A stretch of 37,420 nucleotides of DNA from an uncultured Oscillospiraceae bacterium (lineage in GTDB: Bacteria > Bacillota > Clostridia > Oscillospirales > Oscillospiraceae): positions 1-37,420 of the forward strand of contig CANQVL010000027.1 of NCBI GenBank assembly GCA_947627285.1, in the 5' to 3' direction. Position numbers and translations under genes: made by a program. The notes beneath the pieces were generated by a model. The model was not told the origin of the DNA. It worked only from the letters and a program-made list of their open reading frames with translations, and made no database searches. Shown one piece after another: positions 14,638 to 37,420 of the stretch; the first letter of the stretch is position 1; every line of letters begins with the position of its first letter.

Positions 14638-14986
14638 ACCCGGCTTCTTTATGCTGGCTGCCGTACATAACGGAGATATCCTTGCTGCCGGCTTCACCTC
14701 TGACAGTTGCTTCGTTTCTTCCGTCGACGTAGATGCCCTCAGACCTATCTGCAATGCCGGTTTCCCGGATACCATTGGTGACCTGCCGTGGATATGCTGC
14801 GACTCGCCTGAAGAGCTTGCAGGATTCTTCCGTAAGTATCCTAATAAACATTACAAAATAATTACTCAACGCTCTCCATTGCCACAATGTTGTTTAAAAC
14901 GCTTCGACAATGATAAAATACCAAAATGTTTTACCAGACGTCCATGGAATATAATAATTCAAAAAACTACAAAGGAGCGAAGCGGT
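14638..14986. other. Non-coding or decayed stretch before recombinase 1
   Basis: Frames are open on both strands here (one runs into the recombinase), but none has a credible start, ribosome binding site or known domain. The corresponding region before recombinase 2 is unrelated except for the promoter block near 14880-14920. It is probably a remnant of an older insertion. Confidence 0.4.
14890..14919 (+). promoter_or_regulatory. Conserved promoter of recombinase 1
   Basis: TTGTTT (14890-14895) and TAAAAT (14914-14919) are spaced by 18 bp. The block CAATGTTGTTTAAAACGCT and the TAAAAT recur before recombinase 2 at 36284-36317. Conservation of just this block between otherwise different upstream regions supports a promoter. 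Confidence 0.65.
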
Positions 14987-15802
14987 ATGGAAAAGGAGCT
15001 TGCGGGGTTTGACGCGATGCTGCGCGATAAGGAGCGCTCGCGGGGGACGCGGGAGCAGTATCTGCGCGCGGTCGCGAGGTTTTTGCAGGATTTAGGCGGC
15101 GGGGAGCTGAGCCGCGAGACTGTGGCGGCGTGGCGGGACTCGCTCACCGCCCGGGGTTACAGCGCCGTGACGGTGAACTCCATGCTATCCGCCGTCAACA
15201 GATACCTCACATACGTAGGAAGGCCCGAGTGTCGGGCGAGCTTCCTCAGCGTCCAGCGCCGCGTCTTTCGGGCGAAGGAGCGGGAGCTGACGCGGGAGGA
15301 GTACGAAAAGCTCCTTGCCGCCGCGCCGGAGAGGACGGGGCTCATCATGGAGACTGTCTGCGCCACGGGCATACGCGTCAGCGAGCTTCGGTATATTACC
15401 GTGGAGGCTGCGCGGTCAGGCTGCGCGGAGATACGCTTAAAGGGGAAGATCCGCACGATACTTCTCCCCGGCAAGCTCTGCCGGAAACTATTGAAGTACG
15501 CCAAAAAGCAAAAGACCGCCTCCGGCGAGATATTCCTCACCGGAAACGGCAAGCCGCTGACCCGAGGTCAGATCTGGGCTGAAATGAAAGCGGTGTGCAA
15601 AAAAGCGGGGGTGGACCCGCGAAAGGTCTTCCCCCACAATCTGCGCCATTTGTTTGCCCGAACCTTCTACCGCGTCACACGGGACATAGCGAAGCTGGCG
15701 GACGTGCTGGGCCACAGCTCCATCGAAACCACCCGCATCTACCTCATCTCCACCGGCGAGGAACACGCGCGGGTGCTTGACCGATTGGGGCTTGTAAGTT
15801 AG
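14987..15802 (+). CDS. Tyrosine site-specific recombinase 1 (putative inversion switch)
   Basis: The 271-residue protein is a complete XerC/D-like tyrosine recombinase: an N-terminal core-binding SAM-like domain (about 1-90) and a catalytic domain (about 98-271). All six catalytic positions are present: Arg130 (TGIRVSEL), Lys154 (LKGKIRT), His217 and Arg220 (PHNLRH), His243 (LGHSS) and the nucleophile Tyr252 (TRIYL). ATG 14987 is chosen because AAAGGAG precedes it and recombinase 2 starts at the matching residue, giving the same length. A longer in-frame extension is rejected. The stop lies 1 bp before an inverted repeat that bounds the promoter segment of the next SLH gene. It most likely inverts that segment. 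Confidence 0.9.
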   Translation: MEKELAGFDAMLRDKERSRGTREQYLRAVARFLQDLGGGELSRETVAAWRDSLTARGYSAVTVNSMLSAVNRYLTYVGRPECRASFLSVQRRVFRAKERELTREEYEKLLAAAPERTGLIMETVCATGIRVSELRYITVEAARSGCAEIRLKGKIRTILLPGKLCRKLLKYAKKQKTASGEIFLTGNGKPLTRGQIWAEMKAVCKKAGVDPRKVFPHNLRHLFARTFYRVTRDIAKLADVLGHSSIETTRIYLISTGEEHARVLDRLGLVS

Positions 15803-15803
15803 G

Positions 15804-15821
15804 ACAAAATTACAATTTTGT
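15804..15821 (+). repeat. Inversion site L of locus 1
   Basis: ACAAAATTACAATTTTGT begins 1 bp after the recombinase 1 stop. It is itself a dyad, CAAAAT-TACA-ATTTTG, like the paired arms of a tyrosine recombinase core site. Its reverse complement recurs at 16045-16062 with 17 of 18 bases matching, so the two copies are inverted and recombination would flip the DNA between them. Confidence 0.85.
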
Positions 15822-15868
15822 ACCCTACATAGGAAAACGTACATGGTCTAAAAGTCTTATACATGAGG

Positions 15869-15897
15869 ATTTTATCACGGTAATCCGAAAATGTAAA
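15869..15897 (-). promoter_or_regulatory. Promoter inside invertible segment 1 (OFF orientation)
   Basis: On the minus strand TTTACA (15897-15892) and TAAAAT (15874-15869) are 17 bp apart. As assembled it fires towards the 3' end of recombinase 1, away from the SLH gene. Flipping the segment would put the -10 near 15992-15997, with a leader of about 145 nt before the SLH start. Confidence 0.7.
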
Positions 15898-15930
15898 GTC
15901 GTTTGACAAAGAAAATCGCAAAAAATTGCA

Positions 15931-15975
15931 CAACGAACAGGACCGCAAACGAAAAAATTTCGTCGGTCCTCGTTG
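15931..15975. terminator. Large hairpin inside invertible segment 1
   Basis: CAACG...AGGACCG pairs with CGGTCCT-CGTTG and encloses an inner ACGAAA/TTTCGT stem. Lying within the segment, it may block read-through from the recombinase promoter into the SLH gene in either orientation. The T-rich side faces the minus direction. Confidence 0.55.
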
Positions 15976-16044
15976 TCATGCCAAAAATCAGCCTAAAAGC
16001 CGGACGATTACCAATTATTGGCGTTGCTCCGCACGACGCTCAAT

Positions 16045-16062
16045 ACAAAATTGTAATTTCGT
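16045..16062 (-). repeat. Inversion site R of locus 1
   Basis: ACAAAATTGTAATTTCGT is the inverted partner of 15804-15821 (17 of 18 bases after reverse complementing). Its centre TGTA is the complement of TACA. It lies 86 bp before the SLH gene start. Confidence 0.85.
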
Positions 16063-16148
16063 ATTGAACGTCACGGAAGGAGGCGGCGCGCGACAGGTGG
16101 AGTTAAAATCGGTTACTCAATTATAATTTTTTGAGGAGGTTATATATT

Positions 16149-19130
16149 ATGCGAAAAATTTTACCGATTCTGCTGGCGGTGGCTTTGCTGTTTTCTCTCG
16201 TCCCGTGCGCGTTGGCGGAGGAGGGACCTGACGCGCAGGCCAATGAAAACCTAGATGATATTTGGCTTCTTGTCTATTTTGAAGGTGAAGATGTGCCGAC
16301 CGTCGTTAGATCTGACAAGCTTATGGAGAATGATTTTAATTTTAACGGAGTTAGCGTTAACTGGTATGATTATCAATTTGGCGAAGGCACCGGATATGGC
16401 AGATGGAAGATTTCGACACTTACAGCTTTATTTGAGGGACTTTCCAAGGGCTCCTGTACAATTGATGACTCGCAGAAAAAGATAGATATTTCAAAACCGA
16501 TTGAGTTGCATTTCTTTAACAAAGACGGAGCGAACAAGACAATTGGAAAAAAGCTGGTCTTTGCCTCCACGTCAGAAAAGCCCGATGATGCCGCAGTCGC
16601 GGCTGTGGATGAGAGCGACACCATCACCATCTACACCGACGATTTTAAGTTTGTGAACGATTCGACGGCCATTCCCGCCGGTTTGGACGTTTCAAGTCAA
16701 GATTATGAAAATAACACAATCACCTTTGAAAAAGGTTTGGAAATCAAGAGCGGCGCTTCTGTGAAATTTTCCCATAATGCAAATAAAAAATACAAAAACC
16801 AAAGCCGATCCTGGGTTTCCGCGCAGATGACCTGCGTCTTCGGCGGTGATCTCGTGGTGGACGAGGGCGGAAATCTGTCGGTGGAAGGGCACAAGGCTCC
16901 TCCGGAATGGACGGTCACCACGCCTGGCGTTGACCAGAAGCCGTACAGAGGTTATGATGATGACGGCACAATCTTTGAATTCAGCGGCACACAGTTCCAA
17001 AACAGCGGAGACGTTACCCTGACCGGCGTTCATGTGAAGGGTGAGAACATGAACAACGAGCCTGTCATGGTAAATAACGGGAGCCTGACGTTGGAGGAAA
17101 GAAAAACAACGTCGGGAGAGGGGGCCCGGAACACCGTTACGCTGGTGGAGACGGACAGCACCGCCACCGCCGCCATTGAGTGCGGCGAAAGCTCCACCCT
17201 CACGGTGAAGGATGACAGCCAGATAAAGTCAAACTATAAAAAGGCGGCAGACCTGGAAGCCGGTTCCACCTTCTCCGACGGCACTACCACGACAAAAGTG
17301 GGAGAGGGTTATGCTGAATCCTACGTTGACAACACCGGCAGTCTTGTCCTGAAAGCCAACGAGGACGATATGGTGTCCAAGGTGGATAAGCCCAGTGTGG
17401 AGGCGAATGTTGATAAAGTCAGCGGAGAAGATGGAGATAAGCAAGCGTTGACCGAAGCCCTCGGCGGTATCACGGCGGACCTGCCCATGGTGGAGCAGAA
17501 CGACGCCGCCAGCGAATGGGCGAACGAGAGTAAGACCGGGACTGTCAAAGAGCAGATGAAGGGTGCCACCGGAAAAGAACCTGAAGCCATTGAGGAGGTC
17601 TACATCCACGTTCTGACCATTGTCGAAACAACGGTGGAGGCATACGACAAGGACGCCGGCGTCCTCACGCTGGACATCACACCGTATTATGAGGTCGTAG
17701 CTACTACGGCGGAGGATAAGGACAAAATTGTTCTGCCGGAAGAGGCAACGGAGGACGAAACCATCAACGCCGTTGAACTTGACAAAAAGCCTTTGCAGGT
17801 CGAAGCTGATGTACCAATGACGATCAAATTGCCCGACGGCTTCGGAGGCGGATTGGACGGAAGCGCTAAAATAATTATTGTCCATGACCATGACGGACAA
17901 GTTTACCGTTATAACGGGACAATTGACTTCCCAAATAAAACGGTGAGCTTTACCGCGAAAGGTTTTTCAACCTTCACGGTAGTCTTGCTTAAGAACGGTA
18001 TGCTCACCGAGCTGGAATCCTCGGAAGGAACTATGGGAACGTTTATCCCCAGCACAACGGATTATACCGTCAACGTCCCCTACAACGTTTCCGACCTGAC
18101 CCTCACCGCGACGGCGGCGGTAAAGGGAGACAAGGTTGAAGCAAAATTCGGAGAAAGCCCGTTGACACCCGTCAAAGGCGAGGATTCGGATAAGGATGTT
18201 TACACCATCTCCGTCAGTGACCTTGTGGTTGGCGAGAACAAGGTTGAGATTACGGTGACGCACGGCAGCGGTGATCCCACCACCTACACCGTCACCATCG
18301 TCCGCGCGGCGTATGTGCCGCCTGCGCCTTCGACTTACTCTGTGAAGGTCGAGGAGGTGGAGAACGCCGAGGTGGAGCTTTCCGCCACGAGTGCCACGGC
18401 AGGGACGGAAATCACCGTCACCGTGACCCCCGACGAGAATTACCACGTCTCCGGCGTCACCGTCACCGCCGCCAACGGCGCGGCAGTCGCTGTCACGGAC
18501 AACAAGGACGGCACCTACACCTTCACAATGCCCGCCTCCAACGTCACCGTCGCGGCGGAGGTCTACGAGTGCCCGTCGCTGGCGTTCCCCGACATCGACT
18601 TGACGGAATGGTATCACGAGGGCGTGGACTACGCCATAGCCCACAACCTTATGCGCGGCATTGACGTTGGCGTGTTCGCACCCGAAAAGACCGTCACCCG
18701 CGCGGAAATGGCGGGGATCCTCTGGAACCTTGAGGGTCAACCCGAGGTCGAAGCCGAGATCCCCTTCCCCGACGTTGCTGAAAACGAGTGGTACACCGAG
18801 GCGATCCGCTGGGCGGCAAGCGCGGGCATAATCAAAGGCTACGACACCGGCAATTTCGGGCCCAATGACACCATCACCCGCGAGCAGATGGCGGCGATGC
18901 TGTACTTCTACGAGCAGAAGATCGGCTCCGGCGGCTTTGCGGAGGACGATACGTTTGACCTGACCTTCGACGACGCCGCGGAGATCTCCGACTGGGCGCG
19001 GGAGGCGGTGGCTTGGTGCACGATTAAGGGCGTCATCACGGGCAGCGAGAACAAATTCAACCCCGCCGACACGTCCAAGAGGTCGGACCTCGCCACTATC
19101 CTGGCGCTCTACGATAAACTCGCGAAATAA
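16149..19130 (+). CDS. SLH-domain surface protein, putatively phase-variable
   Basis: The 993-residue product is a secreted cell-wall protein. A signal peptide (MRKILPILLAVALLFSLVPC, cut after ALA at about 23) precedes a variable N-terminal region to about residue 610 with beta-helix-like and adhesin-like stretches. A cadherin-like beta-sandwich repeat covers about 612-720. A beta module with GTYTFTMPASNVTV follows at about 730-806. Three SLH repeats end the protein (807-993: AFPDIDLTEWY, PFPDVAENEWY, DFDD-like), and these anchor it to pyruvylated wall polymer. GAGGAGG sits 9 nt before ATG 16149. No promoter is convincing between site R and the start, so expression should depend on the invertible segment. 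The codons for about residues 30-220 are more AT-rich than the rest, which hints at a mosaic origin. Confidence 0.85.
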   Translation: MRKILPILLAVALLFSLVPCALAEEGPDAQANENLDDIWLLVYFEGEDVPTVVRSDKLMENDFNFNGVSVNWYDYQFGEGTGYGRWKISTLTALFEGLSKGSCTIDDSQKKIDISKPIELHFFNKDGANKTIGKKLVFASTSEKPDDAAVAAVDESDTITIYTDDFKFVNDSTAIPAGLDVSSQDYENNTITFEKGLEIKSGASVKFSHNANKKYKNQSRSWVSAQMTCVFGGDLVVDEGGNLSVEGHKAPPEWTVTTPGVDQKPYRGYDDDGTIFEFSGTQFQNSGDVTLTGVHVKGENMNNEPVMVNNGSLTLEERKTTSGEGARNTVTLVETDSTATAAIECGESSTLTVKDDSQIKSNYKKAADLEAGSTFSDGTTTTKVGEGYAESYVDNTGSLVLKANEDDMVSKVDKPSVEANVDKVSGEDGDKQALTEALGGITADLPMVEQNDAASEWANESKTGTVKEQMKGATGKEPEAIEEVYIHVLTIVETTVEAYDKDAGVLTLDITPYYEVVATTAEDKDKIVLPEEATEDETINAVELDKKPLQVEADVPMTIKLPDGFGGGLDGSAKIIIVHDHDGQVYRYNGTIDFPNKTVSFTAKGFSTFTVVLLKNGMLTELESSEGTMGTFIPSTTDYTVNVPYNVSDLTLTATAAVKGDKVEAKFGESPLTPVKGEDSDKDVYTISVSDLVVGENKVEITVTHGSGDPTTYTVTIVRAAYVPPAPSTYSVKVEEVENAEVELSATSATAGTEITVTVTPDENYHVSGVTVTAANGAAVAVTDNKDGTYTFTMPASNVTVAAEVYECPSLAFPDIDLTEWYHEGVDYAIAHNLMRGIDVGVFAPEKTVTRAEMAGILWNLEGQPEVEAEIPFPDVAENEWYTEAIRWAASAGIIKGYDTGNFGPNDTITREQMAAMLYFYEQKIGSGGFAEDDTFDLTFDDAAEISDWAREAVAWCTIKGVITGSENKFNPADTSKRSDLATILALYDKLAK

Positions 19131-36356: not shown

Positions 36357-37172
36357 ATGATAAACGATCTTATGGGGTTTGAGGCGGAGCTGAGGGGGAA
36401 GGAGAGGTCGCAGGGGACGCGGGAGCAGTACCTTCGCGCGGTCGCGAGATTTTTGACGGATATGGCAGACGCACCCCTGACACATGAGGCTGTGGCGGAG
36501 TGGCGCGACGGGCTGCTGCGTGAGGGGTACGCCGCGGCAACCGTCAACGCCATGGTCGCGGCGGTGAACGCGTATTTTGACTACCTCGGTTGCCCCGAGC
36601 TGCGCGTGAAGGCCATTCGCGTCCAGCGCAGCGCCTTCCGGGAGCAGGCGAGGGAGCTTACCCGCGAGGAGTACGAGCGCCTCCTGGACGCCGCCTCCGA
36701 GCGCCTGAGACTGATCATGGAGACGATATGCTCCACAGGAATTCGCGTCTCGGAGCTCAGATATATAACCGTCGAAGCCGCGAGAGCAGGGGAGGCGCGC
36801 ATAAGCCTGAAAGGGAAGCTCAGAACAATACTCATGCCGTGCAAGCTATGCCGGAAGCTTTTGAAATACGCCAAAAAGCAAAACACCGCGTCCGGCGAGA
36901 TATTCCTCACCGGACGCGGAAAACCGATCACGCGCCGACAAATCTGGGCGGAGATGAAGGCCTTAGCCAAAAAAACAGGCGTGGAGGCTACAAAAATCTT
37001 CCCCCACAACCTGAGACATTTATTCGCGAGAACCTTTTACCGCGTCTGCCGCGATATCGTAAAGCTTGCCGATGTCCTTGGACACAGCTCCGTTGAAACC
37101 ACCCGCATCTACCTCATCACCACCGGCGCAGAACACCGCCGCGCGCTGGACAAGATGAAGCTCGTTATATAG
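36357..37172 (+). CDS. Tyrosine site-specific recombinase 2 (paralogue of 14987)
   Basis: This 271-residue enzyme has the same length as recombinase 1 and is clearly paralogous. The catalytic residues sit at the same numbers: Arg130 (TGIRVSEL), Lys154, His217 and Arg220 (PHNLRH), His243 and Tyr252. The N-terminal 90 residues, which contact DNA, diverge more than the catalytic domain. The ribosome binding site AAAGGAG precedes ATG. An inverted-repeat site begins 2 bp after the stop. It presumably flips the adjacent promoter segment. XerC/D-type chromosome resolution is unlikely, as there are two local copies, each tied to its own repeat. Confidence 0.9.
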   Translation: MINDLMGFEAELRGKERSQGTREQYLRAVARFLTDMADAPLTHEAVAEWRDGLLREGYAAATVNAMVAAVNAYFDYLGCPELRVKAIRVQRSAFREQARELTREEYERLLDAASERLRLIMETICSTGIRVSELRYITVEAARAGEARISLKGKLRTILMPCKLCRKLLKYAKKQNTASGEIFLTGRGKPITRRQIWAEMKALAKKTGVEATKIFPHNLRHLFARTFYRVCRDIVKLADVLGHSSVETTRIYLITTGAEHRRALDKMKLVI

Positions 37173-37174
37173 TC

Positions 37175-37193
37175 ACAAAATAATCATTTTGCC
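37175..37193 (+). repeat. Inversion site a of locus 2
   Basis: ACAAAATAATCATTTTGCC lies 2 bp after the recombinase 2 stop. It contains the dyad CAAAAT-AATC-ATTTTG. Its perfect 19-bp reverse complement is at 37344-37362. Confidence 0.88.
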
Positions 37194-37277
37194 CTCGATT
37201 TGCGGCTCCGTTACCCCGTAATTTCATTCGTTAAAAAAATTTTTTCAAAAAAATGTTGTTTTACCGATGTAAACCCC

Positions 37278-37306
37278 TTGATATTTTTTACGGATAATGC
37301 TATACT
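37278..37306 (+). promoter_or_regulatory. Promoter inside invertible segment 2 (ON-type orientation)
   Basis: TTGATA (37278-37283) and TATACT (37301-37306) are separated by exactly 17 bp on the plus strand. It points out of the window, away from recombinase 2, presumably towards a third SLH gene. Transcription would start near 37313 and pass through sites b and c. Confidence 0.75.
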
Positions 37307-37343
37307 GAGCGCAGTCGAGATCCGTTGTGCGCCCTTATGTAGA

Positions 37344-37362
37344 GGCAAAATGATTATTTTGT
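37344..37362 (-). repeat. Inversion site b of locus 2
   Basis: GGCAAAATGATTATTTTGT is the exact inverted partner of site a. Flanking bases ATGTAGA (37337-37343) recur before site c and resemble the ATGTAGGG block that follows the promoter on the minus strand at locus 1. Confidence 0.88.
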
Positions 37363-37399
37363 CCCAAGCAGCCCTTTCCTTTTTTAATACTATATAATC

Positions 37400-37420
37400 A
37401 TGTAGAGGCAAAATGATTAT
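37400..37420 (-). repeat. Inversion site c of locus 2 (cut by the window edge)
   Basis: Bases 37400-37420 repeat 37337-37357 exactly (21 bp, 63-bp period). It is a third copy of the site in the same orientation as site b; the last five bases lie outside the window. It offers a second possible partner for site a. Confidence 0.75.

Follow-up and report, generated by a model that had tools for sequence, protein, structure and literature searches.

A presumed invertible promoter between a tyrosine recombinase gene and an SLH surface-protein gene in an uncultured Oscillospiraceae bacterium, and its paralogues

Introduction

Invertible promoters that lie beside the genes of tyrosine recombinases are an established kind of genetic switch. 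Amongst invertons for which inversion was detected from sequencing reads, those of inverton group 139 (invertase group 35) come almost entirely from the class Clostridia, with 32 of 33 found there, and the authors suggested that invertases and repeats have co-evolved (PMC11892184). In the fim system of Escherichia coli, the level of fimE mRNA is said to vary with the orientation of the switch (PMC2784873). Here, we consider a stretch of 37,420 nucleotides (contig CANQVL010000027.1 of assembly GCA_947627285.1, hereafter the window) from an uncultured Oscillospiraceae bacterium with a genome of 2.8 Mb in 95 contigs. An original prediction, made from the letters of the window, held that the 259-bp segment lying between a tyrosine recombinase gene and the gene of an SLH-domain surface protein is an invertible promoter caught in the OFF state. 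That reading is supported by the anatomy of the locus, by the catalytic residues of the recombinase, by matched cores across many loci, and by paralogues in opposite orientations, and it is highly probable that the locus is a phase-variation switch in which the recombinase flips the segment and so directs a promoter toward or away from the SLH gene.

Anatomy of the presumed window switch

The features of the locus, in window coordinates, are as follows.

14987..15802, plus strand: tyrosine recombinase of 271 amino acids, presumed invertase of the switch (Pfam, alignment)
15804..15821, plus strand: left recombination site, ACAAAATTACAATTTTGT, with arms ACAAAAT and ATTTTGT around the core TACA
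15804..16062, no strand: presumed invertible segment of 259 bp, now with its promoter pointing away from the SLH gene and presumed OFF
15869..15897, minus strand: sigma-A-type promoter TTTACA-17-TG.TAAAAT, facing the recombinase as assembled
15920..15981, minus strand: terminator-like hairpin, GGACCG..CGGTCC and next GTGCAATTTTTT, on the promoter's strand and about 28 nt upstream of it
16045..16062, minus strand: right recombination site, inverted, also with core TACA and with one arm mismatch, reading ACGAAATTACAATTTTGT when inverted
16149..19130, plus strand: target gene, encoding a 993-aa surface protein with Cadherin-like, Flg_new_2 and three SLH domains, and a signal-like N-terminus by eye

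A 4-bp core flanked by inverted 7-bp arms makes up each site. The two 18-bp inverted sites were recovered where the original prediction had placed them, matching at 17 of 18 positions, both in the sequence and by a repeat search that returned inverted arms at 15804-15822 and 16044-16062 (19 nt, 95% complementary). Their spacing from the genes was also as described, with the left site beginning 1 bp past the recombinase (stop at 15802) and the right site ending 86 bp ahead of the SLH gene (ATG at 16149). Within the 1300 nt 3' of the recombinase, the pair scores 16, compared to at most 12 in 20 shuffles. By eye, the right site is contained in a 38-bp imperfect palindrome (16035-16072), and the left site has none.

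The recombinase matches Pfam Phage_integrase (1.2e-24) and SAM_1, and aligns to XerC-like proteins and to XerD. Tyrosine recombinases share the catalytic set R-K-H-R-H-Y, and the corresponding residues R130, K154, H217, R220, H243 and Y252 are all intact, each of these columns being conserved in 105 or 106 of 106 family members.

The minus-strand promoter (15897-15869; TTTACA, 17 bp, TAAAAT) had been judged a good one, and with a TG ahead of the -10 it has 10 of 12 matches, the highest count amongst the five promoters found in 14900-16300 (shuffle mean 0.7). The promoter scan found none on the plus strand of 16063-16148, in agreement with the earlier view that no convincing promoter lies from the right site to the SLH gene. 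Across six aligned group A segments (the window's own group, see below) the -35 is invariant and the -10 nearly so, and the best promoter score is at least 18 in 73% of 106 segments as against 1.7% of 530 shuffles. Judged by sequence, the promoter lies inside the segment, and since inversion converts a position to 31866 minus its coordinate, transcription of the flipped form is predicted to start near 16004, facing the SLH gene.

The large hairpin noted in the original prediction corresponds to a minus-strand stem at 15928-15981 (-26.1 kcal/mol, z -4.2, a value reached by 1 of 200 shuffles) with a T run behind it. The preferable reading is of an intrinsic terminator that shares the orientation of the promoter; in the window segment a terminator scores on the minus (promoter) strand and none on the plus strand. 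Amongst the window's kin, 13 of 15 segments carry GGACCG..CGGTCC with TGCAATTTTT or TGCAAATTTT close behind, a tally that leaves out locus C8, whose hairpin differs. Of 101 loci, 62 have a scored terminator on each strand, 23 on the promoter strand alone, 8 on the opposite strand alone, and 8 on neither. A rule that the terminator occupies the promoter strand only was therefore rejected for the family, although it fits the window and several near kin, and given this tally any orientation-dependent control of the recombinase is hypothetical.

We infer from this arrangement that inversion occurs at the window's own locus, that this recombinase pairs with these sites, and that expression alternates between ON and OFF. 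In the proposed mechanism, the recombinase (14987-15802) would bind the conserved arms of both inverted sites, and strand exchange within the matched core would flip the 259-bp segment. As assembled, the promoter would direct transcription into the 3' end of the recombinase gene and not toward the SLH gene, an orientation labelled OFF on the strength of promoter direction, and the recombinase would meet that promoter head-on with no scored terminator on its own strand. Flipping would place the terminator and then the promoter behind the recombinase and ahead of the SLH gene; RNA started at about 16004 would carry the surface-protein gene, the presumptive ON state.

Conserved arms and matched cores

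Tyrosine recombinases require identity of the core between sites. In order to avoid choosing matched sites by construction, the sites were also searched by their arms alone, with the core masked, counting loci with exactly two sites; the search covered 143 of 166 recombinase frames, and its three arm scans overlap in loci. With ACAAAAT arms, all 48 two-site loci have inverted matching cores (permuted mean 1.8), drawn from 33 distinct cores, and one of the 48 is palindromic. With ACATTAT arms the cores are matched in 46 of 48 loci, and with ACATAAT arms in 55 of 61. Three of the eight mismatches in the latter two scans are pairs 32-35 bp apart, and the other five look off-register by eye. Within loci, the left and right arms differ in up to about one fifth of cases at some positions, and positions 6-12 never differ (109 of 117 rows, those with at least 10 of 14 arm matches, the tally being conditional on the repeat search).

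Comparison between loci separates the two elements. Over 5565 pairs of 106 loci, which are not independent and come from a site finder that favours four arm motifs, the Spearman correlation with recombinase identity is 0.44 for arms and 0.05 for cores. The pair finder behind these 106 loci demands matching cores, and they are no test of core matching. Recombinases 94-96% alike can have different cores, yet 73% of 22 pairs that are at least 95% alike share a core. This pattern of arms and cores is what would be predicted of inversion by a tyrosine recombinase, with protein contacts in the arms and strand pairing in the core. That cores differ between loci and yet agree within them calls for continuing exchange or selection.

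Many of the roughly 16 units of the genome have a core to themselves, but the cores are not fully private to a locus. TGAT is common to three group C loci, and the window locus shares TACA with C1b and C26, with segments that are 97% identical. The 97% identity was recorded for window positions 15780-16090 with L058 and L061, though the recombinases of L058 and L061 are 84-93% like that of the window, which may point to an exchange of segments, or to gene conversion, amongst loci.

Segments in both orientations

Amongst 288 homologous segment pairs (109 segments, oriented relative to their recombinases), 240 are in the same orientation and 48 are inverted. The clearest two-orientation case is L194/L232, from one congener, where the recombinase ends are identical at 562 of 600 positions and the 300 nt past the right site at 286 of 299, and where the 150-bp segments are identical at 145 of 150 positions only when one is inverted. 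The window's genome offers a further case in its pilin loci C37 and C33, which match at 384 of 397 positions past the site and, with one segment inverted, at 269 of 287 within it; the C33 recombinase frame runs into the site, and the C33 segment was compared with sites set by hand. In locus C92 of a further congener (G019:C92), the segment is inverted relative to that of the window (120 bp at 72%). The recombinase beside this inverted segment (L075, L235) is in two frames, and its switch may be locked, unless the assembly is in error. As a natural example of the ON state, G019:C92 was rejected on promoter scores of 17.0 versus 17.5, and it counts only as an inverted segment.

By promoter direction, 83 of 106 loci are OFF, 18 are ON and 5 gave no call. 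For the window's genome the OFF count is 12 of 16, with all eight of group A amongst them. Related loci do not count as independent, and the same bias would be seen in a locked system. If assemblies show the majority form, OFF would be the common state in the sampled populations.

A number of observations weigh against the inversion reading. About seven flipped segments account for all 48 inverted pairs, which are not independent of one another, and the two-orientation cases are paralogues or relatives in assemblies, not one same locus. The recombinases of C37 and C33 agree at only 534 of 781 nt (68%), and G019:C92 combines an unclear promoter direction (17.0 vs 17.5) with a split recombinase and only a 114-aa frame behind it. 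In the window switch, as in each of its seven nearest paralogues, the promoter points away from the gene, and a locked system would also give this single orientation. Amongst the 135 loci with at least 400 nt downstream, 40 have no repeat scoring 14, some of which do have a site pair in the arm-based tally, and the site pair of C70 is weak (12, compared to shuffles of up to 10).

Related loci in the genome and in other genomes

A search with the window recombinase found 16 members in the genome at 43-100% identity, plus two remote ones; the original prediction was silent both on these roughly 16 switches and on a second switch at the end of the window. For all 16 recombinases the best repeat is an inverted pair just downstream that exceeds all 20 shuffles made for each, one of them (C70) weakly. 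Group A comprises eight loci, including that of the window, upstream of SLH-type genes; by coordinates the first gene has SLH domains in seven of the eight, and in the eighth, C29, the SLH frame is further downstream. The whole genome (G000, 2.8 Mb) has 92 SLH domain hits, 24 of which fall in the eight group A loci by coordinates. By eye, a GGAAGGAGG box at 16075-16083 of the window, just past the right site and well upstream of the SLH gene's own ribosome site, recurs in several group A loci. Group B has three loci, including that of the second window recombinase, with downstream genes mostly hidden by contig ends. Group C has five loci (L066, L067, L068, L069 and L070, also labelled C11, C2, C37, C40 and C33) upstream of genes for long type IV pilin-like proteins, two of them ON and three OFF.

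The second switch of the window has three features.

36357..37172, plus strand: second tyrosine recombinase, group B of the same family (recombinase search, Pfam)
37175..37420, plus strand: second switch, with sites at 37175-37192 and 37345-37362 and a third site truncated where the contig stops
37278..37306, plus strand: second-switch promoter TTGATA-17-TATACT, between its two sites and pointing away from the recombinase (ON-like)

An extra site is present both here and in the paralogue C56. Between the two, the outer piece is inverted (41 of 45) and the promoter piece is not (141 of 151), an outcome that would take two inversions.

Beyond this genome, the recombinase was found in 19 of 34 genomes of the genus at E 1e-30, the window's genome counted, and in 50 of 200 sampled genomes of the family at 1e-60. 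A scan of named genomes, limited to the best 80 of 123 relatives, has amongst its titles Oscillospiraceae, Pseudoflavonifractor, Agathobaculum, Hungatella, Robinsoniella and Christensenella. Behind 95 of 135 recombinase frames, and behind 1 of 135 shuffled ones, there is an inverted repeat with a score of 14 or more, the 135 being those of 166 frames with at least 400 nt downstream and including about a dozen remote second recombinases. A second, more distant recombinase frame (76-103 bits) lies nearby in L119, L120, L132, L135, L137, L205, L207 and L239; in L132 it is followed by a protein that resembles, by eye, a polysaccharide chain-length regulator. A phage origin was rejected, since the recombinase, when searched for in viral contigs, had one remote relative there, at 25% identity.

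Pfam scans of targets took in 21 and 26 of the 78 first genes found, the remaining 31 falling outside them. Of the 21 nearest the window's locus, 12 encode SLH domains and nine none, and InlB-type, cadherin-like and beta-helix domains also occur. At loci with ACATTAT arms, all 26 first genes scanned have the type IV pilin N-terminal methylation motif. The group B leader from right site to gene at L232:1938-2136 folds at -94.6 kcal/mol (z -6.6 vs shuffles). No known RNA element was found in leaders from ten sources by Rfam at gathering thresholds, a tRNA being the only match, and the L232 leader is possibly an undescribed structured 5' leader.

Possible self-regulation and alternative explanations

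It is conceivable, as a tentative extension that we hold to be doubtful as a whole, that the genome carries about sixteen sealed and independently addressable units, each with a recombinase, arms, a core acting as key, a terminator, a promoter and a surface gene. Paralogous recombinases would keep near-identical arms as the core key drifts and is re-matched within the locus by inversion, so that duplicated units in one genome would stop recombining together. The recombinase mRNA would gain its terminator only in the ON state and face an opposing promoter only in the OFF state; recombinase output would then be higher in ON cells and would return them to OFF, an explanation for the excess of OFF loci (83 to 18). 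The self-regulatory part fits poorly with the 62 of 101 loci that have a terminator on both strands, the 8 with one on the opposite strand only, and the 8 with neither.

Of the competing explanations for the window locus, the best survivor is a terminator switch like that of Clostridioides difficile cwpV, in which a promoter upstream (the recombinase's, for example) is read through in one orientation and blocked by the hairpin in the other, with ON and OFF reversed. We consider it improbable. For 62 of 101 loci the hairpin has a terminator score on each strand, in keeping with an insulator rather than an orientation-specific block, and L194/L232 occurs in both orientations yet has no strong terminator on either strand. 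The window is more accommodating, as its segment has a scored terminator on the minus strand and none on the plus strand and the scan lists no plus-strand terminator between the recombinase and the SLH gene, and cwpV itself operates by terminator switching (PMC2784873). By its sequence, however, the promoter is inside the segment, with a -35 that is invariant in six group A segments, though there may be an additional promoter upstream.

Slightly less probable again is the possibility that the promoter mainly serves the recombinase, with antisense RNA now setting the switching rate and SLH control secondary. The promoter does face the recombinase stop codon at a distance of about 60 bp with no minus-strand terminator listed between, but minus-strand terminator-like stems inside the recombinase gene (15620-15605 and 15550-15515) would shorten the antisense RNA. 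Similarly, a promoter direction was called for 101 loci, 83 of them assembled OFF-like, but geometry alone turns the promoter of any such segment toward the recombinase when OFF. The first genes, with SLH domains in 12 of 21 and pilin-like in 26 of 26, indicate that the surface gene is what is controlled. Finally, static binding or attachment sites of a domesticated integrase or integron-like system that no longer inverts, a reading in keeping with a tyrosine recombinase next to palindromic sites and a hairpin and with 83 of 106 loci assembled in one orientation, are very improbable and were placed low because cores match within loci and differ between them and because opposite orientations occur with conserved flanks, although no search for integron cassettes was made.

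If the inversion reading is true, a gut Oscillospiraceae bacterium would combine about sixteen on/off surface genes, producing many surface coats within one clone. In the natural series formed by the roughly 100 recombinase-site pairs, core pairing varies separately from arm recognition, and the series is of use both for understanding how paralogous recombinases avoid cross-action and as a source of compact switches. Furthermore, cores that drift but stay matched in plain assemblies can serve as evidence of inversion without read data.

Comparison with known systems

Amongst the literature matches listed, from open-licence PMC, there was no report of recombinase-SLH or recombinase-pilin switch families, which does not show their absence from print. 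Inverton group 139 and invertase group 35 resemble the window family in having inverted repeats near a tyrosine-type recombinase gene. In contrast, the main text of PMC11892184 nowhere mentions S-layer, SLH or pilin, and the passages compared describe no locus-specific matched cores, the comparison being by description and not by repeat motif.

The E. coli fim switch, as described in PMC2784873, likewise has a promoter inside an invertible segment, adjoining recombinases (FimB and FimE) and a surface structure under its control, and the idea of self-control at the window resembles the orientation-dependent control of fimE in the same source. The likeness is again one of description, and fim uses two recombinases for one switch, whereas the window family has one recombinase beside each of many paralogous units. 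C. difficile cwpV is similar in its 21-bp imperfect inverted repeats, 195 bp apart, and its cell-wall protein target (PMC2784873, PMC5903667), but its promoter is outside the segment (PMC2784873) and that of the window family is inside. RecV, which acts on cwpV and the flagellar switch of C. difficile, is called a master recombinase for several sites and is not encoded beside the switch (PMC2784873, PMC5903667), unlike the adjacent recombinase of the window. Bacteroides, with Mpi, has many invertible regions per genome, including seven polysaccharide loci, but Mpi is a single serine recombinase for at least thirteen regions (PMC5903667), whereas in the window family each segment has a neighbouring tyrosine recombinase. 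Set beside these systems, what looks new is the scale, with a recombinase provided for each switch, matched locus-specific cores, and SLH and pilin targets.
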